DNA of 64,000 nucleotides from a bacterium (GTDB lineage Bacteria; Cyanobacteriota; Vampirovibrionia; Gastranaerophilales; Gastranaerophilaceae), in assembly GCA_017396695.1 (NCBI GenBank), contig JAFQLC010000025.1, positions 1 through 64,000 on the forward strand, written 5' to 3'. The notes under the pieces are model-generated. The model was not told the DNA's origin. It saw nothing but the letters and a program-made list of their open reading frames with translations, and searched no databases. A program made the translations under genes and the position numbers. Positions 3,742 to 31,978 of this stretch are shown here, in pieces. Each line of letters starts with the position of its first letter. Positions within the stretch are counted from its first letter, which is position 1.

Positions 3742-4449
3742 TTAGTTAATTGGTATTCCACATTCAGCAGGTCCAGGTTGCGCGTAGCTTGGCCCAGTTA
3801 AAATTAGTGGCCTTGCGCTATAATCTTCATCTATAAGAAAACCTGGTAAATTGCCAAGCGCAAAAGATTCATTGCCTGCTGTGACATTGCCTGGGATTGG
3901 TTTATTTGGAGAGTAATAGCTTCCTTTTCCATCAATATCAACAAAAGCAACAAATGAAGCAACAGGAATAGATGAGAGTATATTACCTGCATCATCTCTT
4001 TTTACATGAAGTCTGCAAATAGGCTGCCCATTGCCACCCGGACCCCATATGTAAAATACCATACCATTTAATGTTTCAATTTTGCATTGGCTTTTGTTTC
4101 TCGCTGCACCCAAATAAGCGCTTGTGTCGCTTTCGTTTCCTATGGCGTCTGTTGCCCTTGTTGTGTTTAATGTTTCATTTAAGCCTTTGCATAGTTGCAT
4201 AACTGGTCTAACATCGTTAATTGTGCTTTTTGGAAACCTGTGGTGTGTATATTTCGTTCTTAATATTGCTTCACGAACAGAGTCAGACAAAGTTGTTTGT
4301 GCCTGTTGGAATTGATATTTGTACTGAATTTCACGTGGTTTTACTATACTTACGGCGAGTGCCATCATAACCCCAATAATACCTAAAGCAATTAAAATTT
4401 CAGTTAACGTGAAAGCTAATTTTTTCAAGATTTTTCTCCGTTTATACAC
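3742..4449 (-). CDS. pseudopilin-like protein with prepilin N-terminus
   Basis: A 235-aa protein with a type III prepilin signal. A basic leader (MYKRRKILKKLA) is followed by cleavage between A12 and F13, with the conserved glutamate at +5 (FTLTE), then a hydrophobic helix of about 20 residues. The mature domain contains YQFQQAQTTLSDSVREAILRTK and ends with CGIPIN. It is predicted to be processed by a prepilin peptidase and built into a type IV pilus or type II secretion-like pseudopilus. It is divergent from the six-gene pseudopilin cluster at 4693-12242 and likely functions with it. A TGgTATAAT extended -10 box lies just upstream at 4461-4469. Cargo or tip function is unknown. Confidence 0.8.
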   Translation of the reverse strand: MYKRRKILKKLAFTLTEILIALGIIGVMMALAVSIVKPREIQYKYQFQQAQTTLSDSVREAILRTKYTHHRFPKSTINDVRPVMQLCKGLNETLNTTRATDAIGNESDTSAYLGAARNKSQCKIETLNGMVFYIWGPGGNGQPICRLHVKRDDAGNILSSIPVASFVAFVDIDGKGSYYSPNKPIPGNVTAGNESFALGNLPGFLIDEDYSARPLILTGPSYAQPGPAECGIPIN

Positions 4450-4460
4450 CTTTTATACGA

Positions 4461-4469
4461 ATTATACCA
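4461..4469 (-). promoter_or_regulatory. extended -10 promoter element for the divergent pseudopilin
   Basis: On the minus strand the bases read TGGTATAAT, a consensus -10 hexamer with the TGn extension. It is 12 bases upstream of the ATG at 4449, which leaves a very short leader. No good -35 hexamer is seen at the proper distance. Confidence 0.4.
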
Positions 4470-4517
4470 CATTTTTTAGTTTTGTAACTTTTTTTGACAT
4501 TTTTTTATTGATTTGTG

Positions 4518-4547
4518 TTACAAAAATTGATATAGTGGGTATATAAA
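4518..4547 (+). promoter_or_regulatory. possible sigma-70 promoter for the pseudopilin operon
   Basis: TTACAA at 4518-4523 and TATAAA at 4542-4547 are separated by 18 bp and point toward the gene at 4693. This would give a leader of roughly 140 bases. In so AT-rich a sequence, chance matches are common, so this is only a candidate. Confidence 0.3.
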
Positions 4548-4692
4548 ATTTACATGTGTAATTTATTATAGGTGGCTGCTATAGTATGTTTTTAAAGATG
4601 GAAAAAACGAGTGAGAGAGGCTTTAAATTTAAAACTTCGCCTTTTGGCTGCCTTTTGTTTGGATTTTATTAGTATTTCTAAGGGGTAATTAT

Positions 4693-7563
4693 ATGGTAAT
4701 GAATTGCAGAAAATACAAAGCATTTACTTTGATTGAATTGATGACAACGACATTAATTATGGCGATTATCATCTGTGCCGCAATTCCTTTTGCAATGAAA
4801 AAAGACATCCAAAAAAGGGCAGTTGCAGGGCATATTGGTCTTTTTGAATGCTATTACGATTCTAGTGGCAGATTGATGCAGCATATAAGAACAAAAGACG
4901 GCGAAGAAACAAGAACTGCCGCAAGTGGTGGGAAATGCGTCTTTAACCCTAATGCTAACTACGCAAAAGGTGCTAAAAACTTCCAAATTGTTGCAATCGG
5001 CGGTGGCGGTGCAGGTGGAACATATAACACTCATGATACCGATGCCGATTTAACAAGATATTTAAATCAAGGTGTTTCTGCAAATGATACCCTTGAGAGT
5101 AATCATATAAAATATCTCATGGATCATGGCAGATTAAAATTTGGAACTCTATCGAACACAGGTGGTCTAAACGCATGGAACTGGAACGGGCAAAAAGAAG
5201 AAGAAAATAAGATTTGTTACAGATGGTATACGGATAGTTGCGGCAATTGCAGGGGTTACCATGAAGGCAATTGTCCGAACTTCTATTATAAAAATGGGGT
5301 GAGAACAAGGGGATGTCAAAATCACGCTGCCGCAGGTAAACAATTCTGTGAAGTAGTGAGTCGTGAAAACCGCTCTAATGCTGACTACATCTCTGTATAT
5401 AACATAGGTCCAAGGCTATGTTCACTCAATCGCTCCACTAAGCCTTATGACGGCAGAAATAGACTTATGGAAGATGATCTTCCTGAAGAGGATATTTTCC
5501 AAGCTATATATAAATATTATGCTATTGCAGGCAAATATCAAGTTGGAAACAGTGGAGATATAACATATCATATCAAAGCACCATCAGGTATTTCTTCTTG
5601 CGCTTGCTTAAATAACCCTACGCAAACAAGTGGTTGTATGGGTACTAAAAAATATTCTGCTGCTGGTGCTGCAGGCGATGCATATGATTATTCAACACAC
5701 AGCGGTATTCTTCGTGGCGCTTATGCTGGAAATAGCTTCTTAACAACGAATGATTCAGTTGACCAAGCTGGACTAAATAGATATATTACTGGTTTTTGTG
5801 ATAGTAAATTATATTTATCAGGTACAAGCTTTACATGTGGCACTGCTGGAAATAATAATGGATACAATGATAACGCATGTAATGGTTCAACCGAAAAAAC
5901 AGCTTCCCAAAGAGGTTTTCCTAATTTCTATTACAGAGGAAACAACTACGTAAGTAATCGTGTCATTGGATATAATAAATCAAGCATTGATAGCTATTCT
6001 CCTTGGTATGCAAAAATTAGTATGGTTTGGAATACACATAACAACCATAAAGCACAAGGCACAAATAGCTTGAACGATTATGGCGGTGATGTATATTTCA
6101 GACTTGTAACACATAATGGCGTAAGCAATCATGCAATTATTCCTAGAGGTCACCACGGTGATATCAGCACCACAAATGGCGGAAATGCTCAAAAATCAGC
6201 TCAAGAGGCAATAAGCAGTAATTTCCCAGGATATATATCAAGCACATTCTCAAGTGCAAATAACCCTGCAACTGCTTGTCAACCTTTGAGCAATACTTAT
6301 TCACGAACAGATACAAGAATTTATCAAATGGGTGCGCAATGCAGTGGCTATGCATCCACAACTTGTAACTGCGTAACTACTTGTAGCGAAGAGGGCGGTT
6401 GCTCAACCTCTTGCGATAGTGGTAGTGCATCTTGTTCGGATTCCGAACCTCTTAAAAATTATTATACCGGCGGCTCTAAAAATAGTCCTGCTCATATTAC
6501 TCAAACAGCTTCTTGTACAAGTTCAGCCTGTGGTTCTTGTAGCTGCACAGCTTCATGCACCGCAACAAATAATGTTCCGACTTATACAGATTCAGAATAT
6601 ACTTGCGAACACTTAAATTGTTGCAACAATTACAGTCAAGGTAGCAAAAAATATACAATTAGGTATTTGACAGGTGAGCTTGCTTATGAAGGTGAGCAAA
6701 GAATAGAACGCAATTTTGCACATCGTAGCCAACAATTAGACTGTAATTCGCAATTATATATCTATCGTCAAATCAAAGAGGTGCCATACGAAAGAGCATT
6801 CGTTGCATCTGCTGGTCAAAACGGCGCAGTAAGACAAGCGGCATATCCTAAAATTGACGAAGAGCTTACTCTGATTCCTGGGCTTGGCGGTGTTGTAAGT
6901 GGTGGCGAAAATGCTAACGGCAAACCAACAACTATTAAAAACGAAAACGGGAAAGTTATATTGTCTGCCCAAGGTGGCGCCAAAGGCGCAAGCGATAAGC
7001 TAAATGACACTTGGGTTGGTCCTTGTATGGTGTTTAGCCACAGAGGTACCTTTAATCCAAGCCAACCAGGTTGTATGGCCCGCCATGACATTATGAAAAA
7101 ACCAACATATAATTCTCTTCTTATGGCAAATATGCAATATTTAGACAGTGTTTCCGTAAAAACAGGTGAAGATTATAAAGATATGCCGGGGCTTGGCGGA
7201 GATGGTGCATACGCAAATGTATTCCCTGATAGATTCTTATTGAGTAAAGCAATAAGAGACCAAATCAAATTAGAAACTACATATATTGGACCTAACCAAA
7301 AAAATCCTTGGAGTAAAACTGAGGGTAAATATGTTGTTAAAGGTTTTGATAAATTTATTTACGATACTTCAAAAGGTCAAGTAAATGAAGAATTCCTTGG
7401 TAACGGCAGTTTTGCTAGAGCGTTCAAACAAAGATATGATCAGCTTTCACGAGCTTCAGCAACTTTCCTTGACGATTCATCTACAACAAAACGTGACGGC
7501 AGAGTTCCAAACTTCACAAAAGCTACAAATGGCAATAACGGAGCGATAGTAATTATATGGTAA
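4693..7563 (+). CDS. giant pseudopilin with cysteine-rich and glycine-rich regions
   Basis: At 956 aa this is far larger than ordinary pilins (about 150 aa). The prepilin signal is clear: KA|FTLIE with glutamate at +5 (residues 9-15), then a hydrophobic helix to about residue 34. A GGGGAGG motif (103-109) follows a beta-like strand, and later Gly-rich blocks include PGLGGVV and AQGGAKGA. A middle region near residues 550-640 is packed with cysteines (for example SCSCTASC), suggesting disulfide cross-linking outside the cell. The protein ends GAIVIIW, a tail shared by the next two genes. Glycine-rich domains that open with GGGGAGG and close with a GxVxIxW strand occur in phage tail adhesins. 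It is therefore inferred to be a minor tip pilin with adhesive role. The AAGGGG site at 4680 supports the first ATG. Its stop overlaps the next start by 7 bp. Confidence 0.75.
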   Translation: MVMNCRKYKAFTLIELMTTTLIMAIIICAAIPFAMKKDIQKRAVAGHIGLFECYYDSSGRLMQHIRTKDGEETRTAASGGKCVFNPNANYAKGAKNFQIVAIGGGGAGGTYNTHDTDADLTRYLNQGVSANDTLESNHIKYLMDHGRLKFGTLSNTGGLNAWNWNGQKEEENKICYRWYTDSCGNCRGYHEGNCPNFYYKNGVRTRGCQNHAAAGKQFCEVVSRENRSNADYISVYNIGPRLCSLNRSTKPYDGRNRLMEDDLPEEDIFQAIYKYYAIAGKYQVGNSGDITYHIKAPSGISSCACLNNPTQTSGCMGTKKYSAAGAAGDAYDYSTHSGILRGAYAGNSFLTTNDSVDQAGLNRYITGFCDSKLYLSGTSFTCGTAGNNNGYNDNACNGSTEKTASQRGFPNFYYRGNNYVSNRVIGYNKSSIDSYSPWYAKISMVWNTHNNHKAQGTNSLNDYGGDVYFRLVTHNGVSNHAIIPRGHHGDISTTNGGNAQKSAQEAISSNFPGYISSTFSSANNPATACQPLSNTYSRTDTRIYQMGAQCSGYASTTCNCVTTCSEEGGCSTSCDSGSASCSDSEPLKNYYTGGSKNSPAHITQTASCTSSACGSCSCTASCTATNNVPTYTDSEYTCEHLNCCNNYSQGSKKYTIRYLTGELAYEGEQRIERNFAHRSQQLDCNSQLYIYRQIKEVPYERAFVASAGQNGAVRQAAYPKIDEELTLIPGLGGVVSGGENANGKPTTIKNENGKVILSAQGGAKGASDKLNDTWVGPCMVFSHRGTFNPSQPGCMARHDIMKKPTYNSLLMANMQYLDSVSVKTGEDYKDMPGLGGDGAYANVFPDRFLLSKAIRDQIKLETTYIGPNQKNPWSKTEGKYVVKGFDKFIYDTSKGQVNEEFLGNGSFARAFKQRYDQLSRASATFLDDSSTTKRDGRVPNFTKATNGNNGAIVIIW

Positions 7564-8930
7564 TCAAAAAAGAAAAACTAAAAAAAATAGCTTTTTCGCT
7601 TGCAGAAGCAATGATTTCAATGCTCATAATATCTGCAATTGCAACAATGTCAATAAAGCTTTTTGCAGGTCAAAAAACAAAAAAAGCCGCTGATATGGCA
7701 CATCACATCATGGGGTGCTACATCACAAACACTGGTGCTATTGCTGCAATGTCTATGGAAATTGGCAAGCCTGAAACGCTTTATATCGAAAGTTTGGGCC
7801 CAGGTGCAACTCCAACAACCTTAAATGGTGTTCCGGTGTCGGAAGGCATAGGTAATATGAAATTATATTATAACGGGCAAAGAGAAGCGGCTACGGAGCA
7901 CTTTAACTACACTCCTATTCCGATTAGTGGCATTGATGGTCCGTTTTGTGCCATGGACGTAACTGAAACATTAAGCTCTACCGCAAGAACTGTTGCAATG
8001 ATAGGCGGTGGTGGTTTTGGCTTTATGTCAAACGGCCCTACATGGGCAGAATATAACCGTCCAGGAGACTCTGGTTTTTTTGCAACATATACAAATCTTG
8101 ATTTCACACGTCCTGGAATTTATCGTCTATATCCAGGGTTGGGTGCGCAAATTAGGGGTGCAGATATAGAGTCTCAAGCATTAGGTGATTCCACAAATAG
8201 AGAAGGTAGTCCAAGTAGGCTTCTTTATGTTCCAACAAGAGTTGATGCTAACGGTGTTACTACTGAAGTTTTTGGTGTTGGCAACAGTAACGTTGAAACT
8301 TTGGCAGAAGTTCGAGGTGGATATAGTAGAAATCATTATTACCCAATGGGGCCAATTCCTCTTGAAGATATTGGTTGCGATGATAGTCAATCATGTAGAT
8401 TTGAAGGCAGTGAATTCAAATTAGCAACACAAAAATTGAGTGATGCAAAAGCAACAAAATGCGCAGGTAAGACCGAAGCCCAATGTAATGAAATCATGCA
8501 AGATCGCAATACCGACAATTGGACAGAATACAACGAACCAAGACAATTATTTAGCGAACAAAGATTTAAAAATTATGTTACAAAAACCGTTCCAACAGCT
8601 TCAGGTGATGAAGTTCAAAGCACTTTTGCTGGCAATAACGGAGCCGATGCATTTAACGATTACTATAAAGGCGGAACAATGATTGCAACGGAAGCTAGTA
8701 ATAAGATTATGGTTGGCATGAATGACCTTGCACCAAGATGCGCTAATGATATGCATGACTTCTTAAAACTTGCTGCAAATAGTGGTGCACCTACAATATT
8801 CACAGGCACTGTAAATGATGAATATTTATATACATTCGGAACAGGTGGTGCTTGTTCAAATTATCATAATTTTAGCGCGGGCACAAATGCTACACCAGGT
8901 AAAGGTGGTGCAGTGTTTGTTATTTGGTAA
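7557..8930 (+). CDS. large pseudopilin with glycine-rich domain
   Basis: A 457-aa protein with prepilin signal IA|FSLAE (F13, E17) and hydrophobic helix to about residue 36. The family-like glycine motif IGGGGFGF lies at 149-156, and the protein ends GAVFVIW, matching the tails of the proteins before and after. It starts 7 bp inside the previous gene, so translation is probably coupled. The central region is acidic and Asn/Gly-rich with a few paired cysteines (CDDSQSC). Interpretation is as for the preceding gene: an extracellular minor pilin whose globular part resembles a glycine-rich adhesin. No homologue of known function was recognised. Confidence 0.75.
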   Translation: MVIKKEKLKKIAFSLAEAMISMLIISAIATMSIKLFAGQKTKKAADMAHHIMGCYITNTGAIAAMSMEIGKPETLYIESLGPGATPTTLNGVPVSEGIGNMKLYYNGQREAATEHFNYTPIPISGIDGPFCAMDVTETLSSTARTVAMIGGGGFGFMSNGPTWAEYNRPGDSGFFATYTNLDFTRPGIYRLYPGLGAQIRGADIESQALGDSTNREGSPSRLLYVPTRVDANGVTTEVFGVGNSNVETLAEVRGGYSRNHYYPMGPIPLEDIGCDDSQSCRFEGSEFKLATQKLSDAKATKCAGKTEAQCNEIMQDRNTDNWTEYNEPRQLFSEQRFKNYVTKTVPTASGDEVQSTFAGNNGADAFNDYYKGGTMIATEASNKIMVGMNDLAPRCANDMHDFLKLAANSGAPTIFTGTVNDEYLYTFGTGGACSNYHNFSAGTNATPGKGGAVFVIW

Positions 8931-8958
8931 AAATAGATAAATTATAAAAGGATATAAA

Positions 8959-10314
8959 ATGAAAAAACTGAACGCCTTTTCTTTAATGGAAGTCATGACA
9001 TTGCTATTGATTTTATCAATAGTGGCTGCCGCAACTGTTCCTCTTGTCACAAAAAGAACTTTGAGCGAAAGTCACGGTTGGTATGCTTGCTATCACCAAG
9101 TTCACCCAGATGGTACAACAGATAGAAACTTGATGCGTGAAATTCGTGTTGAAAATAAAACGGAAGATAATGCTCAAAACAGAATTGACCATCAAGTAAG
9201 TCAATGTTATTTTAATTTCCCAACAGGCAACCCTAAACCTAAGGTGTTCACAATTACAGCAATTGGAGCTGGTGCTAATTTGACTGGTACACAAAGAACT
9301 GCAAGTCTTGTTGAAGTTGAAGGCGCTGGTACTTATGATTATGAAGATGACGACCCTGAAATAAGAAAACATCATATTTTATCAAACATCTGGGGTTATA
9401 TGATGAATTCTTCAATGCTAAATGCCGTTGCCTCGCACACAGAAGGCGGTGTTCCTACGTATCGTTCTGGCAAGTACGGTTCTTATTTCGGCGTTGTTAG
9501 AGCAATTTGCAAAGGAGAAGATTATACATTCTGCACGCCGACCCCTGGCGAATATGTAAGAACTGTATATAGATTAAACGATTCGGACCCGAACGAATTT
9601 CAAAGGTTGAAAATCGATGTTGGTATGCCGATGACTTTTTCGGATTCCCAGATTTACGACTACAAACTAGCAAACCAACCTAAAACTCCATCTAGTCATT
9701 CCGGAATGAAAACAACAGTTACAACAGCACAAGGAGAAGTGGTTGTTGAAGCTCAGGGTGGTTATGTTTATAAAAAAAGTAATTCGATTTCAAAAATCAT
9801 AGTTCCCGTTTATGATGAACTCGCATGTAAAAAGGATGGACTTCAACTTTGTGCTCAAGTTGATGGTTGCACAATGAATGATTATAGAGTTTGCATGGAT
9901 TCAGGCTTTATTACTGAAGTTAACTATCTTACAAAATTAAACAGCACTTATCCAATGAAAGATAATGATCCTGACACAGTTGATGCTTTTTGGCTTTCAA
10001 ACAGATTGGTTCACACCCCTGGAATATTTGACGGACAGCCAGAATACGAAGCGTTTATGAGCATATACGACACGCCGCTTGATGATTCAGGTTGTGATGC
10101 TTATGGCAGAAACTGTAGATACACAAACAGAAAACTTGCTTTTGGTGACCCAACTTTAGTTTATTTTGAAAAAACAGATTCTCAAAGAAATTCGGGTAAT
10201 GCGTTTCAAACAGTTACCCCGAACCATACTACAACAATTACACATACGTATCTAGGTGGTTCAACCGCCAGAGAACAAAACGCTCGTGCAGGTTTAGTAT
10301 TTATCACTTGGTAA
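8959..10314 (+). CDS. large pseudopilin, third of the glycine-rich set
   Basis: A 451-aa protein with prepilin signal NA|FSLME (F7, E11). The glycine motif is weaker (ITAIGAGANLTG near residues 97-108) but sits at the same distance from the N-terminus, and the C-terminus is GLVFITW. It has several cysteine pairs (CKKDGLQLC, CDAYGRNC), consistent with an exported disulfide-bonded domain. An AAAGGA ribosome site precedes the ATG. Paralogy with the two upstream genes is inferred from the shared architecture rather than from long identity. The gap to the next gene is only 14 bp. Confidence 0.72.
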   Translation: MKKLNAFSLMEVMTLLLILSIVAAATVPLVTKRTLSESHGWYACYHQVHPDGTTDRNLMREIRVENKTEDNAQNRIDHQVSQCYFNFPTGNPKPKVFTITAIGAGANLTGTQRTASLVEVEGAGTYDYEDDDPEIRKHHILSNIWGYMMNSSMLNAVASHTEGGVPTYRSGKYGSYFGVVRAICKGEDYTFCTPTPGEYVRTVYRLNDSDPNEFQRLKIDVGMPMTFSDSQIYDYKLANQPKTPSSHSGMKTTVTTAQGEVVVEAQGGYVYKKSNSISKIIVPVYDELACKKDGLQLCAQVDGCTMNDYRVCMDSGFITEVNYLTKLNSTYPMKDNDPDTVDAFWLSNRLVHTPGIFDGQPEYEAFMSIYDTPLDDSGCDAYGRNCRYTNRKLAFGDPTLVYFEKTDSQRNSGNAFQTVTPNHTTTITHTYLGGSTAREQNARAGLVFITW

Positions 10315-10328
10315 TATAAAGGAAAATA

Positions 10329-10916
10329 ATGAAAAAGGCTTTTACAGTTGCAGAAGGACTTGTTACGCTTGTTATAGTTGGTGTACTGGCAAGTGTTATG
10401 GTAACTTCTGTAGTTAAACAAAAACCAGACAAAAATAAAATTATGATACGAAATGCATACGCTGAACTTACAGGGGTTGTTAATCACCTTGTTGCAGATA
10501 GTATGCTTTATCCTGATTTCGCTGAATTCGGGCTTGCAGACGACACAAGAGTTACTGTTAGATATGGTGGCGAATCGTTCGTGCTTGCAGATAACCGTGG
10601 AAAACTTTGTGTTGGTTTAAGACATTATTTTAATAGCATTACTGAAGGCTATGTGGAAGATAACGTAGAACCTGATATTCCATGTCGAGCTAGTTTTTAT
10701 ACAAAAAATGGCGTGAAGGTTAGATTCGAAGTTAACCACAGAAATGCAAATGATTTTGTCCGCTTTATTTATATGGATGCTAACCCAACAAACGATAGCG
10801 AAATATTAAATGGAGTTGACACAGACACTGTTCAAATACAAATTTCAAGATCTGGCAAATTAACCATCCGAAATGCTGCTGCTAGGTCTATTATAAGCGA
10901 AGGACAAATTAGGTAG
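10329..10916 (+). CDS. pseudopilin (195 aa)
   Basis: The prepilin signal KA|FTVAE starts at residue 4, followed by a hydrophobic helix (GLVTLVIVGVLASVMVTSVV). After it comes an amphipathic NAYAELTGVVNHLV stretch and the segment PDFAEFGLAD, which is the local version of a motif repeated in the next two genes. One cysteine pair (CVGLRHY and IPCRAS) may form a disulfide. It is closely spaced with its neighbours (14 bp before, 7 bp after), which supports a single operon. The size fits a normal minor pilin that could cap or initiate a filament. Confidence 0.75.
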   Translation: MKKAFTVAEGLVTLVIVGVLASVMVTSVVKQKPDKNKIMIRNAYAELTGVVNHLVADSMLYPDFAEFGLADDTRVTVRYGGESFVLADNRGKLCVGLRHYFNSITEGYVEDNVEPDIPCRASFYTKNGVKVRFEVNHRNANDFVRFIYMDANPTNDSEILNGVDTDTVQIQISRSGKLTIRNAAARSIISEGQIR

Positions 10917-10923
10917 GAATAAT

Positions 10924-11625
10924 ATGAAAATAAAAGCGTTTACACTTGCAGAAGCAATGGTGATGATAGCTGTTCTTGGAATCATCACTGCTGTTGCGCT
11001 TCCAACTCTTGTTAAAAAAGATTTTAAAACGGACACAAGTGTTCGCGCAGCGTCAAAAGCGTATGCTGCCCTTGCTCAAATCACCTCAAACGTTATTCAA
11101 GATGGTTATTATTACAGAAGGTTTGATATTGATGGTTTTGGTGATGCTACGCAAGGTGTTGACGTTTTAACAGGTGAAACCTTTGGAGGCGCTGGAGTTA
11201 ATGCTCCTGAAAAATTCAAAGATATTTTGCTTGATGCGCTGTATGTTTCTAACGTTGAAGAAGATAATGACAGTTGCGTGTTCGACACAGCAGATGGCGT
11301 CAGATGGAAGCTTAAATGGGCTAATAATACTTTTTCTAGCTTAGCAAATCCTATGATTGTATTCATTGATGCCAATATAAAAAATGGCGACGATTTCGAA
11401 TGCAATAGTTTAGATGCTTGCAGAGCAGTCGATACAGTTGCTTTCTTGATTTATAGGAATGGCAACGTGGTAATTGATGGAACAGAAACTCGTGCAAGAG
11501 TTGGTGTAAATTCAAGTGGAAATTTGGCCAATGTTTCCACATTTAACGATGAGACATTTGTGAAAAAGATTTTAGGTCAACACGAAGATACTAAAGTTAT
11601 TTCAAACGAAAATTATTACAATTAG
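10924..11625 (+). CDS. pseudopilin (233 aa)
   Basis: The prepilin signal KA|FTLAE (F6, E10) is followed by the hydrophobic helix AMVMIAVLGIITAVALPTLV. It shares with its two neighbours the arrangement of a helical KAYAALAQITSNVI stretch, then RRFDIDGFGDA, then an FGG-type turn and a domain with a disulfide candidate (CVFDTADG and CNSLDAC). The GFGDA sequence corresponds to GFADA in the next gene. A ribosome site (TAGGAATA) precedes the ATG. It is likely a minor subunit of the same filament. Duplication within the cluster is inferred from these matched motifs. Confidence 0.75.
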   Translation: MKIKAFTLAEAMVMIAVLGIITAVALPTLVKKDFKTDTSVRAASKAYAALAQITSNVIQDGYYYRRFDIDGFGDATQGVDVLTGETFGGAGVNAPEKFKDILLDALYVSNVEEDNDSCVFDTADGVRWKLKWANNTFSSLANPMIVFIDANIKNGDDFECNSLDACRAVDTVAFLIYRNGNVVIDGTETRARVGVNSSGNLANVSTFNDETFVKKILGQHEDTKVISNENYYN

Positions 11626-11633
11626 GAGATAAA

Positions 11634-12242
11634 ATGAAAAAAGCTTTTACATTGCCTGAGGCGATTATATGTGTTGGGATTGTTGCAGTTATTGCGGCGA
11701 TTATGATTCCTGGTTTGATTAAAGCAAGGCCAGATGAAGAGAAATTAATGGTCAAAAAAGCTTATAATACAACTTCTGAAATTATTTCGTTTTTCTCAAA
11801 TGAAGTAACTATTTATTCCAGAATGCAAGCTGACGGGTTTGCAGATGCCCAACCTTATGAAGATTTAGATGGTAATACTTTTCAAGGTGGCGGAAAATTT
11901 TGTGATTTGTTTAAATCTAAAATAAATTTGCTCGAAGAAGATAGGACGTCAACACTTGGTATTTTAGGGTGTGAAACGGAATTTACTTCTATTGATGGCA
12001 TCCAATGGTATGTAAGAACAAATCCTTCTACAAACCTTAATCACGATATCAACACAAGAACAGATCAATCTGATTACGTAACAATTGCTTTTAAAGCACC
12101 GAAACCAAGAAATGAAACTAGTTGGTGGGCAGTAAATGTTTCAAGATATGGCAGAATTTCTATTCCGCAAAGATACACATACAATACAAATAATGCTAGA
12201 TTATACGATATAATCTCTGATGTAGATTTAACTAAAAATTAA
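11634..12242 (+). CDS. pseudopilin (202 aa), last gene of the cluster
   Basis: The prepilin signal KA|FTLPE (F5, E9) precedes the helix AIICVGIVAVIAAIMIPGLI. Proline at +4 is a small departure from the usual leucine or isoleucine. The mature domain has KKAYNTTSEIISFF, then MQADGFADAQPYEDL and FQGGGKFCDLF, which align by eye with the two preceding proteins. AGGAGA lies 6 bases before the ATG. The gene ends 17 bases before a strong terminator, so this is the operon's last gene. No pilus assembly ATPase, inner-membrane platform or prepilin peptidase follows, so those must be elsewhere in the genome. Confidence 0.76.
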   Translation: MKKAFTLPEAIICVGIVAVIAAIMIPGLIKARPDEEKLMVKKAYNTTSEIISFFSNEVTIYSRMQADGFADAQPYEDLDGNTFQGGGKFCDLFKSKINLLEEDRTSTLGILGCETEFTSIDGIQWYVRTNPSTNLNHDINTRTDQSDYVTIAFKAPKPRNETSWWAVNVSRYGRISIPQRYTYNTNNARLYDIISDVDLTKN

Positions 12243-13132: not shown

Positions 13133-13172
13133 TGAATTTTGCTATGCATAACATTTAATGAAAGGAAAAATC

Positions 13173-13520
13173 ATGTTAATATCTAAAATTAATTTCTATA
13201 CACCATATGCAAAAAGTTTACAAACAAAACAAGGGTTCATGTCTTTTAAGGGCAATATTCCAGAGCCTAAAAAATGTTTTGAACTATCAAGCGATGAATT
13301 ATATACAAAACATGGTGCCTATAAAGCTATCCTTACTCAAAACCAAATTAATGCTTTAAAGAAAATGTCGGAGCATTATGAGAAAAAAGGAGTTACTTCA
13401 AACCTTGCAGTTGCATTTTTTCCTGATCCTGTTGCAGATATTTTCGTTGCAACAAGTCAAAACGATTTAATTAAAGGTGATGCAAAGTGGCAGAAGATAA
13501 CTGATTTTGATAGCTTGTAA
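13173..13520 (+). CDS. small hypothetical protein with leader motif
   Basis: The start is placed at the ATG at 13173 because AAAGGA at 13161-13166 is correctly spaced for it, not for the in-frame ATG at 13158. The protein is then 115 aa. The first 27 residues (MLISKINFYTPYAKSL, then GFMSFKGN) resemble the leader of the adenylate kinase in this window, which begins MLISKI and ends VSFTGK. The rest is helix-forming (LTQNQINALKKMSEHYEKKG) followed by a hydrophobic beta-like part (NLAVAFFPDPVADIFVA). It has no cysteine-rich or membrane segment. Family and function are unknown. It is preceded by an unusually structured leader and followed by a convergent terminator. Confidence 0.65.
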   Translation: MLISKINFYTPYAKSLQTKQGFMSFKGNIPEPKKCFELSSDELYTKHGAYKAILTQNQINALKKMSEHYEKKGVTSNLAVAFFPDPVADIFVATSQNDLIKGDAKWQKITDFDSL

Positions 13521-15541: not shown

Positions 15542-16729
15542 TTAGCCCTGCACTTTCTTTTGGAAGAATTTTTTGATTTTTCCGACTAATGTTTTTGGTT
15601 GGTCAATATCAAGCCATGGGATATCTTCGCCCAAAATTCTTCTTGCAACATTAAAATAAGCTTGTCCTGCAAGGGATTTTTCGTTGTTTACGATAGGCTC
15701 ACCTTTGTTTGTTGAAGTGATGATACCTGTATCTTCAGGAATTACACCAATAAGCTCTGCTGATAAGATGCTTACAACATCTTCAACGCTCATCATTTCA
15801 TTTGATTTAATCATATTAGGGCGAACTCTGTTTACGAGGAGTTTGTATTTTTTAACATCTTCTTTTGATTCTAATAAACCAATAATTCTGTCTGCATCAC
15901 GCACAGCGCTCATTTCTGGAGTTGTAACAATGATGGCTTCGCTAGCTCCTGCAACTGCGTTTTGGAAACCTTGTTCGATACCTGCTGGGCAGTCAATTAA
16001 AACATAATCGAAATCACGTTTAAGGTCTGCGCAAATTTCAAGCAATTGTTCCGCATTAAGTGCTGATTTGTCTCTAGTTTGTGCAGCTGCAAGTAGGCAC
16101 AAGTTTGGATTTCCTTTATCTTTTACAAGGGCTTGTTTTAGCTTACATCTTTTTTCAACAACATCAACAATTGTGTAAACAATTCTGTTTTCAAGACCAA
16201 GAAGTAAATCTAGGTTACGAAGTCCGATGTCTGTGTCGATAACAACAATTTTATTGCCTAATTTTGCAAGAGCAGTACCAATATTTGCTGATGTTGTGGT
16301 TTTACCTACGCCACCTTTTCCACTTGTAATAACTATAACTTTTCCTTTACCTTCAGGCAAGGTTTCTTTTTTTGATTCTTTTTTTGCTTTTTTGGCAGGT
16401 TTTTTAGGAGCTTCAACCACTGCTTCAGGAGCTTCTTCAGTTTCTTCTGCTACTTCTGCAGTTTCTTCTTCTACTTTTTCTTCGCATTCGCAATGTTCGC
16501 CATCGCATTTACAATGTTCTTCGTCACATTCGCAATCTTCACATTCGCAATCTTCTTCGCTATGACAAGAACATTCGCCGTGGCATGTGCATTCTTCGCC
16601 TTCTTCGTGGCATGTGCATTCTTCGCCTTCTTCATGACAAGAGCATTCACCACCACATTCGCATTCGTGCTTTTCTTCTGTCATTTCTTGAATATCGACA
16701 TTTTTTTGATTTTCAAAATTTTCAGTCAT
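15542..16729 (-). CDS. minD: MinD ATPase with cysteine-rich CxC N-terminal domain
   Basis: Residues 128-395 are a complete MinD: deviant Walker A SGKGGVGKTT (136-145), VIDTDIGLRNLDLLLGLENR, the DCPAGIE switch region, and a C-terminal amphipathic membrane helix (LVGKIKKFFQKKVQG). MinD recruits MinC to the membrane to block off-centre FtsZ rings. The exceptional part is residues 21-82. They contain 18 cysteines in nine CxC pairs, with seven histidines spaced among acidic residues, much like a metallothionein or metal-binding array. An Ala/Glu/Lys linker follows. Two exact 27-bp tandem repeats (16579-16632) show the domain grew by duplication. The extension starts from a natural ATG 10 bp after minC. 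Normal MinD is about 265 aa, so the addition is about 130 aa. Metal binding is inferred, not shown. Confidence 0.93.
   Translation of the reverse strand: MTENFENQKNVDIQEMTEEKHECECGGECSCHEEGEECTCHEEGEECTCHGECSCHSEEDCECEDCECDEEHCKCDGEHCECEEKVEEETAEVAEETEEAPEAVVEAPKKPAKKAKKESKKETLPEGKGKVIVITSGKGGVGKTTTSANIGTALAKLGNKIVVIDTDIGLRNLDLLLGLENRIVYTIVDVVEKRCKLKQALVKDKGNPNLCLLAAAQTRDKSALNAEQLLEICADLKRDFDYVLIDCPAGIEQGFQNAVAGASEAIIVTTPEMSAVRDADRIIGLLESKEDVKKYKLLVNRVRPNMIKSNEMMSVEDVVSILSAELIGVIPEDTGIITSTNKGEPIVNNEKSLAGQAYFNVARRILGEDIPWLDIDQPKTLVGKIKKFFQKKVQG
16579..16632. repeat. two exact 27-bp tandem repeats inside minD
   Basis: The units at 16579-16605 and 16606-16632 are identical. They encode the repeated CHEEGEECT block of the cysteine-rich MinD extension. 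Diverged units of the same kind follow on both sides. Unit length is a multiple of three, so copy-number changes would keep the frame. Confidence 0.9.
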
Positions 16730-24338: not shown

Positions 24339-25058
24339 TTATTTTAAATCTTCTTGAACGGTTTTTGTAATTTGACTTTCAACCCCTTCAATATCTTGGT
24401 TTCCGTCAATATCCACAACTTTATCGCCATAGTAATTAATCAAAATATCTCTTACCGCATTATAGTTTGCAATTCTTGTTTTTAGCTTTTCAGGTGTGTC
24501 ATCGGTTCTATTTTCAATAAGTGCTCTTGAGCGCATTCTATCAACAAGTTTATCTTCATCAACTGAAAGTTTAATAACTTTAATTTTTGCATTTTCTTTT
24601 TTGTTTAGCTCATCAACCATAACTGCTTGTTCTTCGCTTCTTGGAAAACCGTCTAAAATAAAACCATTTTTGCAGTCATCTTGCGCTATTCTTTTAACCA
24701 AAATTGCTTTGAATACATTCGTTGGAACAAGTTCTCCTGCATCCATATATTTTTGCGCTTCAAGCCCTACTTCTGTTTGGTTTTTAACTTCTTCTCTGAG
24801 TAAGTCGCCTGTTGAAATGTGTGCAATTCCTAATTCTTTAGCTAATTTTTTTGCTTGTGTGCCTTTTCCGCTTGCAGGCGCACCAAGGAAAATATAAATT
24901 GTTTTTTCTTTTAATTCAGGCTTTTTATCTTCTTGAACCTTGCCTGTGAAAGAAACTGTATCATATGGCATTAGAAAAGAAACTCTTTGATTTTGCCTTT
25001 GTGCACCAAAATTAAAATTATTTACTCTAAAACTTGGGCTAATTTTTGAAATCAACAT
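24339..25058 (-). CDS. adk: adenylate kinase with N-terminal leader
   Basis: Catalyses ATP + AMP = 2 ADP. The kinase begins at about residue 52. It has P-loop FLGAPASGKGTQAKKLA, ISTGDLLREEV, GELVPTNVF, GFILDGFPRSEEQA and RTDDTPEKLKTRI. The lid is short (RMRSRALIENRTDD), without a zinc finger, as in eukaryotic AK1-type enzymes. The odd part is the first ~50 residues. They start MLISKISPSFRVNNFNFG and end DTVSFTGK, and are not found in normal Adk. The same opening (MLISKI) and closing (SFKG) appear in the protein at 13173. The ribosome site AGGAGAG precedes this long start, which supports translation of the leader. Confidence 0.9.
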   Translation of the reverse strand: MLISKISPSFRVNNFNFGAQRQNQRVSFLMPYDTVSFTGKVQEDKKPELKEKTIYIFLGAPASGKGTQAKKLAKELGIAHISTGDLLREEVKNQTEVGLEAQKYMDAGELVPTNVFKAILVKRIAQDDCKNGFILDGFPRSEEQAVMVDELNKKENAKIKVIKLSVDEDKLVDRMRSRALIENRTDDTPEKLKTRIANYNAVRDILINYYGDKVVDIDGNQDIEGVESQITKTVQEDLK

Positions 25059-26645: not shown

Positions 26646-26777
26646 TCTTTTGATAAATTCTCAAAAACACTTTATTTTTTGCAAAATGTAACAAAAATAT
26701 AAATTCAAATTAATTCTCTAGCAAAATATTTTAATTTCATGATTTGTAATTTCAACACATTATGAGGAATATGTTAG

Positions 26778-29700
26778 ATGAAAATTAACCCAATTGGTAT
26801 GAGTGTAATTCCCCAAACAAAAACTAGCGGGAAAATTGTTGAAAATAAAGTTGAAAATCCAATCTCATCAAATAGTTTAGTTTTACCGAATGATTACACA
26901 AAACTTGCATTCACGGCAAATAAAATGGATCATGCTGGTCTAAAACAAATTAGAGATATGAAAGATAATTTTACACCAGAGGCAGAAGACATCTACACTG
27001 CGACCCAAGATTTTGCAAAAAGCATCGGCGCAAAAGAAATGGAAACTTGGCATTTTTACTATAATTCACTTCTATTTTTAAAAGAGTATATCCAAGAACT
27101 TGACGAAGGAAGAGCAAACCACGATGAAGAAACTCGTCTTAAAATGCCATTTGAATTAGAAAACATGATTGCAGTTAATTGCACTGCCCTATCAAATGAA
27201 AAATCAAGAGCAAAAATTGCCGAAGTTCTTGATGAGCACATTGAAATAGTTCAAAGAGATTTTATTGCAGAAGAAATTAATAAACCTCAATCAAAAATCA
27301 AAATGCCATCATTATCAAAACCACAACTTTCAATGGATTGTGCAAATGATTTGGTTGAAACTTATGACTTAGTTGCAAACGAAATGGATTCAAATAACTA
27401 TTTTGATGCATATTTCCTTACAACTGCTTACCACACAAAAGATAAAAAATTAACAAAAGAAGCAAGAAATTTGGTTTATGACCTTCAACATGCTTTGATG
27501 GTTGATGATATCGATAAGAAAAAGAAAAACCACTTGCGTTTTTATGATGAAAAAGCAGATGTTATTTGGAAAAATTTAAGTCTCAGAAACGATGCAATTT
27601 GTTTGTATCCAACAGATGACATTGAATCTTCTCAATATTTGATTTCAAGCTTTATAAATTTAGTTAATAAACCAAATCAAACATATAAAGGAATCGACCC
27701 AGAAAATACAAACATTGAGCTTTTAAACAAACATGCAACTTTTGAATATTTGAATAAAGCTGTAAAAAAAGCAAAATACGACCCTGAATATAAAGGCAAA
27801 ACAACAGTTTTCATTGTAAATACACTTGATTTATTCAGAAAAACTGGAGGTCAATTAACTGAAGCTGACCTTGTAACGCTCAAAAATGAACTAACAAATA
27901 AAGAAGGCGACGATAGAAATGTTAGACTTGTGCTTACAATGACGCCTGAGTCTTATTATGCAAACACTCAAAAAGGCGCAAGCCTCACAAACATTTTCTC
28001 TAAATATGCGGTTCAAACTCTGCCTTCTTTGAATGCTTCAGATGCCATTGCGTTTTTAACAGATGAAAACGGTATCAAATTTGTTCAAAATGAAACGAAA
28101 GGTGATTTTTCAAAAGAAGCAATAACAAAGGCAATCGAGCTTACAGCGCAAGATGAAGGAAATTATCCAGATAAAGCTTTGAATTTACTCTCTGGCGTTA
28201 AAAAATATTACGTTGATAAAGATGAAATAACAACAAAAGATATTGAGACATTTGCAGCTGAAACTAAAAAATTAAGCGAAACTTCAAATGCAAACAATGG
28301 CATAAATGTTGTTTATGACACAGGGAAAAGATTAAATGACATTGTTGGAAGCCCAATGACAAGAGCGGATGCCGAAGCAATTGTTAATCAAATTAAAACA
28401 AGAACAATTGGCACAAAAGGTATTAGTGCTTACTTAGATAATGGCACATCATATGGCGGCGGAAGAAAACACACTGCTGAGGCTATTGCTGGTGAAGCTG
28501 GTATTCCAATGATTACAATTAACGCTCAAGATTTTGCGCTCAAAGATATCGATATGTTATCTCAAAATGCTGATTTATCTGAGATGAAAATTAGAAAAAT
28601 TGTCTCTCTTGCAAAAGCACAAGCGGAAGCAAACCCTAATAAAACGGCAATGATATTTATTGAAAACTTTGATAATTTTGCAGCAAACCCACTTTATGGC
28701 GTTTCTTCAATTTATGAACAAAAAGCATTCTCGCAATTACTTGCTGAGATGGAAAACGCAAGAAAAAATGATGATGTGAATTTAGTTGTGGTGGGCTCTG
28801 TTAATATGCCTGAAGTAATTGATATGAACATAATGAAGCCATACAAATTCCTTGATTCAATTATTGTGTTCCCACCTCAAGACACAAATGAAAGACAAGA
28901 AGTTCTTAATTATTACGTAAATAAGTTGAATCTTGATATTGCAGGCGAAACAGTTGAAGAAAAACAAAAAGTTATAAGAGATTTGGCTGAAACAACAAAG
29001 GGCTTTACAGTTGTTGATTTGATTTACTTGCTTGAAACTTCAAAAAGCGTTGTGGCTGAAAGAGGAAAAGATAAAATTGGCTCGGCTGATTTTGTTGAAG
29101 CATATTTAAGAACAACATCTGGAAGACCAAACAAAGCTCATATTCCTGAAGCAAGAAAGAAAATTGTAACATCGCATGAGGCAGGACACGCACTCACTTT
29201 GCAATTAATGTATGAAATTGCTGAAAAACAAGGCATTGCTTGGCACTTGCCGGACATGGTGAACTTTATAACACTTGACCCAAGAGCAAATTATGGCGGT
29301 GCGATGTATTATAAAGATTCAGATAACCAAGAACTTTGTTTTGAAAGTATGATTGCGGATATGATTTGCTCATACGGCGGTCATTCATCTGAAAAAGTGC
29401 TCTATAATATGTCTGGTTCATACGGCATCACAGGCGATATGCAACAAGCTGAATCCATTGCAAGACTTGCTGTTTTAGATATGGGTATGGGGCCAAAAAC
29501 TGGGGTTAGACACGTAAGACGCAACGCACTTGGTGCACCTGATGTTTCAAATGAAAAAATGGCTGATATAGAAAAAGATATGGATGCTTTCCACAAAGGC
29601 GCAAAAGGTATTTCAGATTCAATTATCGAAGAATACAAAGGCTTTATTGAAGAATTTACTGAAAAACACTTTGCAAAAGTGGGCACAGGTGAATGCCTTG

Positions 29701-29843
29701 TTTCATCAAAAGAATTTATTGATGAATTAAATGCTTGGAGACAGGCTCAACCTGAAGAAAAACAAAAATCAATGAAAGAACTCGAAAAACAAATTTTAGA
29801 TGACATTGATAAATTAAAAACAGGTGATTATATTAAAAATTAA
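26778..29843 (+). CDS. FtsH-like soluble metalloprotease (peptidase M41) with degenerate AAA modules
   Basis: A 1021-aa protein with no membrane helix. The C-terminal third is a peptidase M41 domain: zinc motif HEAGH (residues 800-804), then YGGHSSEKVLYNMSGSYGITGDMQQAESIARL, equivalent to the FtsH GGRAAEE..G..TTGASNDL region with the third zinc ligand Asp. Before it lies an AAA-like module in which Walker A is ruined: GISAYLDNGTSYGGGRKHTA (548-567) replaces GxxGTGKT, and IFIENFDNF stands for Walker B. An earlier region (about 330-470) looks like another decayed AAA-type unit. The FtsH membrane anchor is absent, and the N-terminus has a leader ending KLAFTANK. Proteolysis is predicted; ATP hydrolysis is not. 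It is monocistronic, with a terminator at 29869. Confidence 0.78.
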   Translation: MKINPIGMSVIPQTKTSGKIVENKVENPISSNSLVLPNDYTKLAFTANKMDHAGLKQIRDMKDNFTPEAEDIYTATQDFAKSIGAKEMETWHFYYNSLLFLKEYIQELDEGRANHDEETRLKMPFELENMIAVNCTALSNEKSRAKIAEVLDEHIEIVQRDFIAEEINKPQSKIKMPSLSKPQLSMDCANDLVETYDLVANEMDSNNYFDAYFLTTAYHTKDKKLTKEARNLVYDLQHALMVDDIDKKKKNHLRFYDEKADVIWKNLSLRNDAICLYPTDDIESSQYLISSFINLVNKPNQTYKGIDPENTNIELLNKHATFEYLNKAVKKAKYDPEYKGKTTVFIVNTLDLFRKTGGQLTEADLVTLKNELTNKEGDDRNVRLVLTMTPESYYANTQKGASLTNIFSKYAVQTLPSLNASDAIAFLTDENGIKFVQNETKGDFSKEAITKAIELTAQDEGNYPDKALNLLSGVKKYYVDKDEITTKDIETFAAETKKLSETSNANNGINVVYDTGKRLNDIVGSPMTRADAEAIVNQIKTRTIGTKGISAYLDNGTSYGGGRKHTAEAIAGEAGIPMITINAQDFALKDIDMLSQNADLSEMKIRKIVSLAKAQAEANPNKTAMIFIENFDNFAANPLYGVSSIYEQKAFSQLLAEMENARKNDDVNLVVVGSVNMPEVIDMNIMKPYKFLDSIIVFPPQDTNERQEVLNYYVNKLNLDIAGETVEEKQKVIRDLAETTKGFTVVDLIYLLETSKSVVAERGKDKIGSADFVEAYLRTTSGRPNKAHIPEARKKIVTSHEAGHALTLQLMYEIAEKQGIAWHLPDMVNFITLDPRANYGGAMYYKDSDNQELCFESMIADMICSYGGHSSEKVLYNMSGSYGITGDMQQAESIARLAVLDMGMGPKTGVRHVRRNALGAPDVSNEKMADIEKDMDAFHKGAKGISDSIIEEYKGFIEEFTEKHFAKVGTGECLVSSKEFIDELNAWRQAQPEEKQKSMKELEKQILDDIDKLKTGDYIKN

Positions 29844-29868: not shown

Positions 29869-29900
29869 GCAAAAAAGCGGGGTTAACCCCGCTTTTTTGC
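29869..29900. terminator. strong intrinsic terminator
   Basis: A perfect 14-bp inverted repeat (GCAAAAAAGCGGGG, TTAA loop, CCCCGCTTTTTTGC) follows the M41-like gene by 26 bases. It is symmetrical enough to act in both directions. Confidence 0.92.
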
Positions 29901-31093: not shown

Positions 31094-31978
31094 TTAAAAA
31101 CTCAAGTCTTGCTTTAATAAATTGGTCAGTATTTCCGTGTTTTGCGTATATTGTGCGTAATTGTTAAGACGTTCAAATATAAATAAAACGTCCTTGATTG
31201 GAAAACCGCTATGTATTAGGTTAGAAAGAATAATTGTTAAATCGATTGCTGATATAAAATGCGGAACTAAATCGTTCACCAATGTTGGGTCTTGCGATTT
31301 TACAAGCTCCATTAATTTTAATGTGTCAGTTTTTGAAAAAACTTGTTTTGAATATTTAATACATACTTCTCCAAGGTTTTCGATAATTTTATCTGAATTA
31401 TTGTTTTTTAATTCTTCTTTCGTTAATTTGCCCGTGAAAACCTTCTTGTTTCTCACATGTATTTGATACTCGTATTCGGGCAGTTTTTCGTAATCAAGGA
31501 TTCTTACATTTGGGATTATATAGCCCAGCTCATCGGTCAAATATTCTCTTAAGGAAGCTACATTTGGGATTAGCGAACCATTTGATGTTGGGTCTGCTAT
31601 GCTTATGATGTTTTCGCTTATAAATATTGCCAATACATCCACACCTAAGCGCTCGTACATATTTGATGGATTTTGTAAATTACTTAATTCTTTTTCTTTG
31701 TTTGATTTTCTCTTTTGATTAATTTCATTTTTTTCATTAGAAATATCGTTAATTTCGCTTTGCAGAGATTTTATTTTATCTACAACAGACATTCTGGGCT
31801 CGTAATTTGAGATAATTTTGCGGGCTATATTATTGTTTTTGATTTTGTAATAATTGCCGAAAAATGCACTTAAAAAAAACATTTTGATGTTATTGATTGT
31901 AGAATGTTTGTGGTTTTTTGCAGATTTAATTTTAGCATATTTTTCTCTTACTTTTCTGTCGATCTCATTGTTGTGCAT
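31094..31978 (-). CDS. stand-alone FlhA-type C-terminal domain protein
   Basis: Residues 110-294 match the cytoplasmic domain of the flagellar export gate protein FlhA: RLGVDVLAIFISENIISIAD, then LREYLTDELGYIIPNVRILD, VRNKKVFTGKLTKEE, and the late TLKLMELVKSQDPTLVNDLVP and LSNLIHSGFPIKDVLFIFERL. In FlhA this domain forms a nine-subunit ring that docks FliI, FliJ and chaperone-substrate complexes. Here the eight membrane helices are missing, the adaptor subdomain is shortened, and the first 110 residues are a charged coiled-coil-like region. It is isolated from other flagellar genes. A diverged soluble paralogue acting on export or as an unrelated adaptor is likely. Type III secretion SctV is an alternative source. 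Confidence 0.72.
   Translation of the reverse strand: MHNNEIDRKVREKYAKIKSAKNHKHSTINNIKMFFLSAFFGNYYKIKNNNIARKIISNYEPRMSVVDKIKSLQSEINDISNEKNEINQKRKSNKEKELSNLQNPSNMYERLGVDVLAIFISENIISIADPTSNGSLIPNVASLREYLTDELGYIIPNVRILDYEKLPEYEYQIHVRNKKVFTGKLTKEELKNNNSDKIIENLGEVCIKYSKQVFSKTDTLKLMELVKSQDPTLVNDLVPHFISAIDLTIILSNLIHSGFPIKDVLFIFERLNNYAQYTQNTEILTNLLKQDLSF

Follow-up and report, generated by a model that had tools for sequence, protein, structure and literature searches.

Descriptions of FtsH-type proteases present them as membrane-bound enzymes driven by ATP. The stretch of DNA analysed here (64,000 nucleotides; hereafter the window) contains a gene for a 1021-residue protein that ends in an FtsH-like zinc protease, and that an initial annotation had read as soluble and bearing dead ATPase modules. 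The locus thus raises the question of what such a protein is made of, and how it could act as a protease with neither anchor nor motor.

Domain architecture

Pfam detected an AAA domain at residues 561-691 (49 bits) and a Peptidase_M41 domain at residues 789-962 (54 bits), both exceeding their cut-offs, and no Lon domain was present among the Pfam and NCBIfam matches. The NCBI FtsH model (TIGR01241) covered residues 560-962 at 120.6 bits, below its cut-off of 600 bits. In the AlphaFold model of the whole protein (mean pLDDT 74), the predicted back half resembled the AAA+M41 fold of FtsH, the best chains reaching a TM-score of about 0.8 when normalised by target length. No membrane segment was found in the protein, in which the best 19-residue Kyte-Doolittle mean is 1.14, versus 2.6 in the FtsH of the same genome. 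Features and coordinates are collected in Table 1.

The zinc site is intact: the H, E, G and H of HEAGH and the third ligand, Asp887, are invariant in the 74 distinct relatives on which all our conservation counts are based. This bears on whether the protein is mainly a protease at all, or a scaffold or holdase that merely retains the M41 fold. FtsHi proteins set a precedent for FtsH relatives being kept after losing one activity (PMC8197885, PMC9020784), yet a scaffold would not need the zinc-site residues that are conserved here without exception, and we regard this reading as very improbable.

The front half escaped single-protein Pfam searches, and its recognition needed profile and fold comparisons. 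Residues 246-510 are predicted by AlphaFold, with moderate confidence, to be AAA-like, with strands alternating with helices and followed by a helical lid. When a second model, restricted to residues 50-514 (pLDDT 65, built from three sequences), was used as a fold query, 50 out of the 50 PDB matches listed were ClpC, ClpA, ClpB or Hsp104 (best E 2e-8), and several of the alignments among them spanned the N-domain and D1 together. With the family profile as query, hhalign matched the N-domain to ClpC/ClpB of the same order at 92% (score 53; controls ≤19) and D1 to Clp proteins of the same order with scores of 38-53 (controls at most 19-25), the controls being 40 scrambled or reversed ones. Additionally, AAA_lid_9, a Clp lid family, exceeds its cut-off in one active relative, and a ClpA match covers residues 194-418 of relative L013. 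In the Clp_N-like part, where model confidence is low in places, the predicted likeness is clear only for the first repeat. Since the first AAA region and the domain preceding it are of Clp type, the protein is a Clp-FtsH hybrid with the order Clp_N - pseudo-Clp D1 - pseudo-FtsH AAA - M41. The anatomy given in the initial annotation (an intact M41 domain behind an AAA module with ruined Walker A and B, a second decayed AAA-like region earlier, and no membrane anchor) was therefore correct, and the predicted fold, which resembles AAA plus M41, does not contradict it, although it had missed the Clp (ClpC/ClpA/ClpB) type of the first AAA region and of the domain before it.

Table 1. Features of the hybrid protease gene and its product (window coordinates; residues numbered along the 1021-aa protein).
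Feature	Coordinates	Strand	Basis
Shine-Dalgarno-like GAGGAA, 8 nt 5' of ATG	26764..26769	+	Read from sequence
Hybrid protease gene, 1021 aa	26778..29843	+	ORF list; homologues in about 118/383 genomes of the order
N-terminal leader, residues 1-52 (MKINPI ... LAFTAN), predicted disordered	26778..26933	+	AlphaFold pLDDT < 50 at residues 1-53
Clp_N-like helical domain, residues 53-245	26934..27512	+	hhalign to ClpC/ClpB of the order; ClpC in fold search
Pseudo-AAA 1, Clp D1 type, residues 246-510	27513..28307	+	hhalign, fold search, predicted structure
Pseudo-AAA 2, FtsH type, residues 511-780	28308..29117	+	Pfam AAA 49 bits; FtsH matched in the PDB by sequence and by fold
Walker A remnant GGGRK, residues 560-564	28455..28469	+	Lys to Arg in 74/74 relatives
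Walker B remnant E629-N630	28662..28667	+	Glu to Asn and Asp replaced, each in 70/74
Second region of homology (SRH) remnant, residues 673-693	28794..28856	+	Arginine-finger positions are K687, K690
M41 zinc-protease domain, residues 781-1021	29118..29840	+	Pfam M41 54 bits; FtsH fold match
Zinc-binding HEAGH, residues 800-804	29175..29189	+	Both His, the Glu and the Gly invariant (74/74)
Third zinc ligand Asp887 (GITGDM)	29436..29438	+	Asp in 74/74; aligns with Asp of FtsH GASQDL
Perfect 12-bp hairpin, TTAA loop and T-run, likely intrinsic terminator	29871..29898	+	Read from sequence

Loss of the ATPase residues

Neither AAA domain carries the residues needed for ATP hydrolysis. In the alignment of the FtsH-type AAA with the FtsH of the same genome, Walker A (GPPGTGKTL) has become GTSYGGGRKH, Walker B (VFIDEIDAV) has become IFIENFDNF and the second region of homology (LRPGRFDRQ) has become MKPYKFLDS, while the FVG of the FtsH pore loop has been lost. 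Across the 74 relatives the arginine-finger positions are mostly Lys, with Arg in 4/74 and 3/74. D1 reads LYPTDDIESS at the P-loop position and FIVNTLDL at the Walker B position, and no pore loop is recognisable in it. A hidden P-loop elsewhere in the protein, which would have contradicted the claim of dead modules, could be ruled out: none of the 74 relatives has a GxGK[ST] or G-x4-GK[ST] pattern at any position, and the only GKT in the window protein, at residue 340, is not embedded in a P-loop.

We consider it rather likely that the protein is an ATP-independent, soluble, ring-forming protease of the M41 type, derived from AAA+ ancestors. It would still assemble into a ring of six subunits, as such AAA-M41 modules do, and the two dead rings would serve as a fixed entrance and a substrate-selecting lid with no motor. 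The Clp_N-like domain may capture unfolded proteins, loose chain ends or one specific partner, and captured substrates would diffuse into the M41 chamber to be cleaved without ATP, by analogy with LonC in the Lon family.

Counting against this reading, nucleotide binding can survive Walker replacements of Lys by Arg and of Asp/Glu by Glu/Asn. The pseudo-AAA rings might bind a nucleotide or small ligand without hydrolysing it, the binding opening or closing the protease. GxGR, S674 and F691 are invariant among the 74 relatives and N630 is nearly so, suggesting a kept pocket, and the LonC hexamer binds six nucleotides without hydrolysis (PMC3391209). However, the Lys and the Thr/Ser that hold phosphates and Mg have been lost, and R563 may just pair with E629. 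We judge such ligand control to be unlikely.

Conservation and selection

The dead-ATPase state is fixed under purifying selection, with no sign of decay. When the window was compared with the nearest genome, dN/dS, estimated by simple Nei-Gojobori counting, was 0.04-0.07 in the leader, Clp_N, D1, D2 and M41 alike; values in other close pairs were mostly low too, with looser leader and Clp_N parts. The replacement residues are themselves conserved (R563 in 74/74 relatives, N630 in 70/74), which drift would not give, and this argues for a kept structural role. Chance is excluded because the conservation spans 74 distinct sequences, and the agreement of these sequences, from many genomes, likewise rules out a sequencing or assembly artefact. 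A recent pseudogene is incompatible with the dN/dS of the nearest pair and with the conserved replacement residues. Separately, a few relatives carry stops or are split (in G319, at G319:C2:46337-49364, and in G185, G201 and G359), and the gene is therefore sometimes lost.

Distribution and history

A profile search gave matches in 126/383 genomes of the Gastranaerophilales, an order of cyanobacterial relatives that live in the gut; by score, about 118 matching genomes have the dead type, and named relatives belong to Candidatus Gastranaerophilales / Melainabacteria. At the same threshold, a search of 386 genomes of the phylum gave no family member outside this order, and the absence rests on that set (a wider contig scan was swamped by ordinary FtsH). 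Hence, all dead forms seen so far come from the order of the window itself. Phage and plasmid sequences were considered as a source: no relative of the protease was present on the viral contigs searched, and a mobile origin was rejected, as phage/plasmid matches never extend over more than about half of the protein (chiefly its FtsH-like back half) and are FtsH where annotated.

In a quick, unrooted tree of the AAA+M41 region, from which the Walker and SRH columns were excluded, dead members formed one clade (support 100) and canonical FtsH another (support 100), with hybrids that have an intact second P-loop placed between them. These active hybrids (L013, L018, L019, L020 and L193-L199) share with the dead form the leader style, a front half devoid of P-loops, the AAA and the M41 domain; they differ in that their second AAA keeps GxPGTGKT and DE, and they are likely ATP-driven. 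Because each of the 14 in-between hybrids has exactly one P-loop, located in the FtsH-type AAA, ATPase loss probably took place in two steps, with Clp D1 disabled first and the FtsH AAA second. L015-L017 have kept Walker A and show altered Walker B and SRH. L193-L199 are soluble, of about 750 aa, with GPPGTGKT and HExGH, and are found together with the dead form chiefly in genus g6.

Such co-occurrence allows for mixed rings, in which dead subunits would join ATP-competent FtsH or active hybrid subunits that supply the ATPase, as in plastid FtsH heteromers. Plants have FtsH heterocomplexes as well as FtsHi members without the protease motif (PMC9020784), Ycf2-FtsHi structures were among our fold-search matches, and some genomes, mostly of genus g6, hold both the dead hybrid and an active soluble one. 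Most genomes with the dead form, however, show no active hybrid. In genomes such as G000, G003 and G027, a canonical membrane FtsH was the sole further M41 protein identified, leaving no soluble active partner to hand; several genomes of this kind are 98-99% complete (G003, G027). The host genome (28 contigs totalling 1.36 Mb, completeness about 80%) also has one M41 protein besides the hybrid, a canonical FtsH. Canonical FtsH is moreover membrane-anchored and has no Clp front ring, and the arginine-finger positions needed by a neighbouring subunit are gone in nearly all relatives. We hence find mixed rings improbable.

Gene surroundings and N-terminal leader

The hybrid protease gene stands alone. 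The hairpin that follows it is absent from the list produced by our pattern scan, which requires a T-run after the stem. Neighbourhood comparison revealed no operon partner, i.e. no neighbour recurring across genera; recurrent neighbours were rejected as partners, since they look like shared synteny inside one subgroup. Other genes of the window deserve a brief mention. The 294-aa protein at 31094-31978 (-) has its best match only to positions 301-408 of the 657-position FHIPEP (FlhA) model, and from sequence would be either a fragment or a spun-off domain of this flagellar export model. At 15542-16729 (-), a MinD/ParA-type ATPase has an N-terminal tail that is very rich in Cys/His/Glu/Gly over about residues 20-85 and resembles a metal-binding tail. 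The region 3742-12242 appears to be a large pilin cluster, with a series of prepilin-like proteins whose N-termini are of the FTLAE type.

The leader motif reported earlier turned out to be real. Its pattern is loose (M-x-I-x-x-I, a disordered stretch, then F-x-G/A), and in its simple form it occurs in 55/88 family members and about ten unrelated proteins, the count in the host genome covering part of that genome. Position enrichment measured by regular expression was weak. An adenylate kinase at 24339-25058 (-) has a 50-residue leader (MLISKI ... VSFTGK) in the style of the protease, and a leader of the form M-x-I-x-x-I ... (S/T/A)F-x-G is also found at 13158-13520 (+) and in L175, L185, L188, L238, L248, L265 and L269; no common domain is apparent among the other leader-bearing proteins. 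The leader is possibly a sorting signal. A more far-reaching proposal, which we put forward tentatively, is that a Clp-FtsH fusion gave rise to a separate family of ATP-independent compartmental metalloproteases, both ATPases being lost in two steps, and that the two dead rings might form a substrate-selecting gate opened by a specific partner or by the leader-bearing proteins of the order.

Comparison with known systems

The hybrid shares with FtsH the succession of AAA and M41, the fold and the zinc ligands, including the third Asp. It lacks the anchor, has lost the arginine fingers along with both Walker motifs and falls short of the FtsH model cut-off, all of which places it outside FtsH; it also adds Clp_N and Clp D1 in front. 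From ClpC/ClpA/ClpB (Hsp100) it has the N-domain followed by the D1 AAA, in the same order and fold; its D1, though, has no Walker A/B, and an FtsH AAA plus M41 replaces the Clp D2 and the separate ClpP. Having neither an ATP-competent AAA nor a Clp-type D2, the hybrid is also outside Clp. With Clp D1 ahead of FtsH, the two large bacterial types of AAA+ protease are joined in nature.

Plant FtsHi/Ycf2 are likewise catalytically degenerate FtsH relatives retained by selection, yet their state is the opposite one: FtsHi has lost the protease HEXXH, and these proteins act in membrane complexes. No Clp-fused or ATPase-dead M41 protease was described in the open literature that we searched.

The closest functional parallel is LonC (MtaLonC), in which a conserved protease is fused to an AAA-like part without canonical AAA+ motifs; it forms hexamers, shows no ATPase activity and breaks down unfolded substrates only (PMC3391209). 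The hybrid resembles LonC in combining dead AAA and intact protease in one chain and differs in lying outside the Lon family: LonC is a Lon-family serine protease with no Clp ring, and the two do not share a protease domain. The suggestion of a new protease class is better narrowed to a lineage-specific new form of AAA+ protease, for which LonC is a functional precedent (PMC3391209). Control through binding in place of ATP, also suggested in the initial annotation, is a possibility. The active hybrids would represent intermediate steps and open the order in which the ATPase motors were lost to study. If our reading is true, a widespread, strictly conserved, anchorless and ATPase-dead form would show the M41 chamber running without a motor, as LonC does for Lon.
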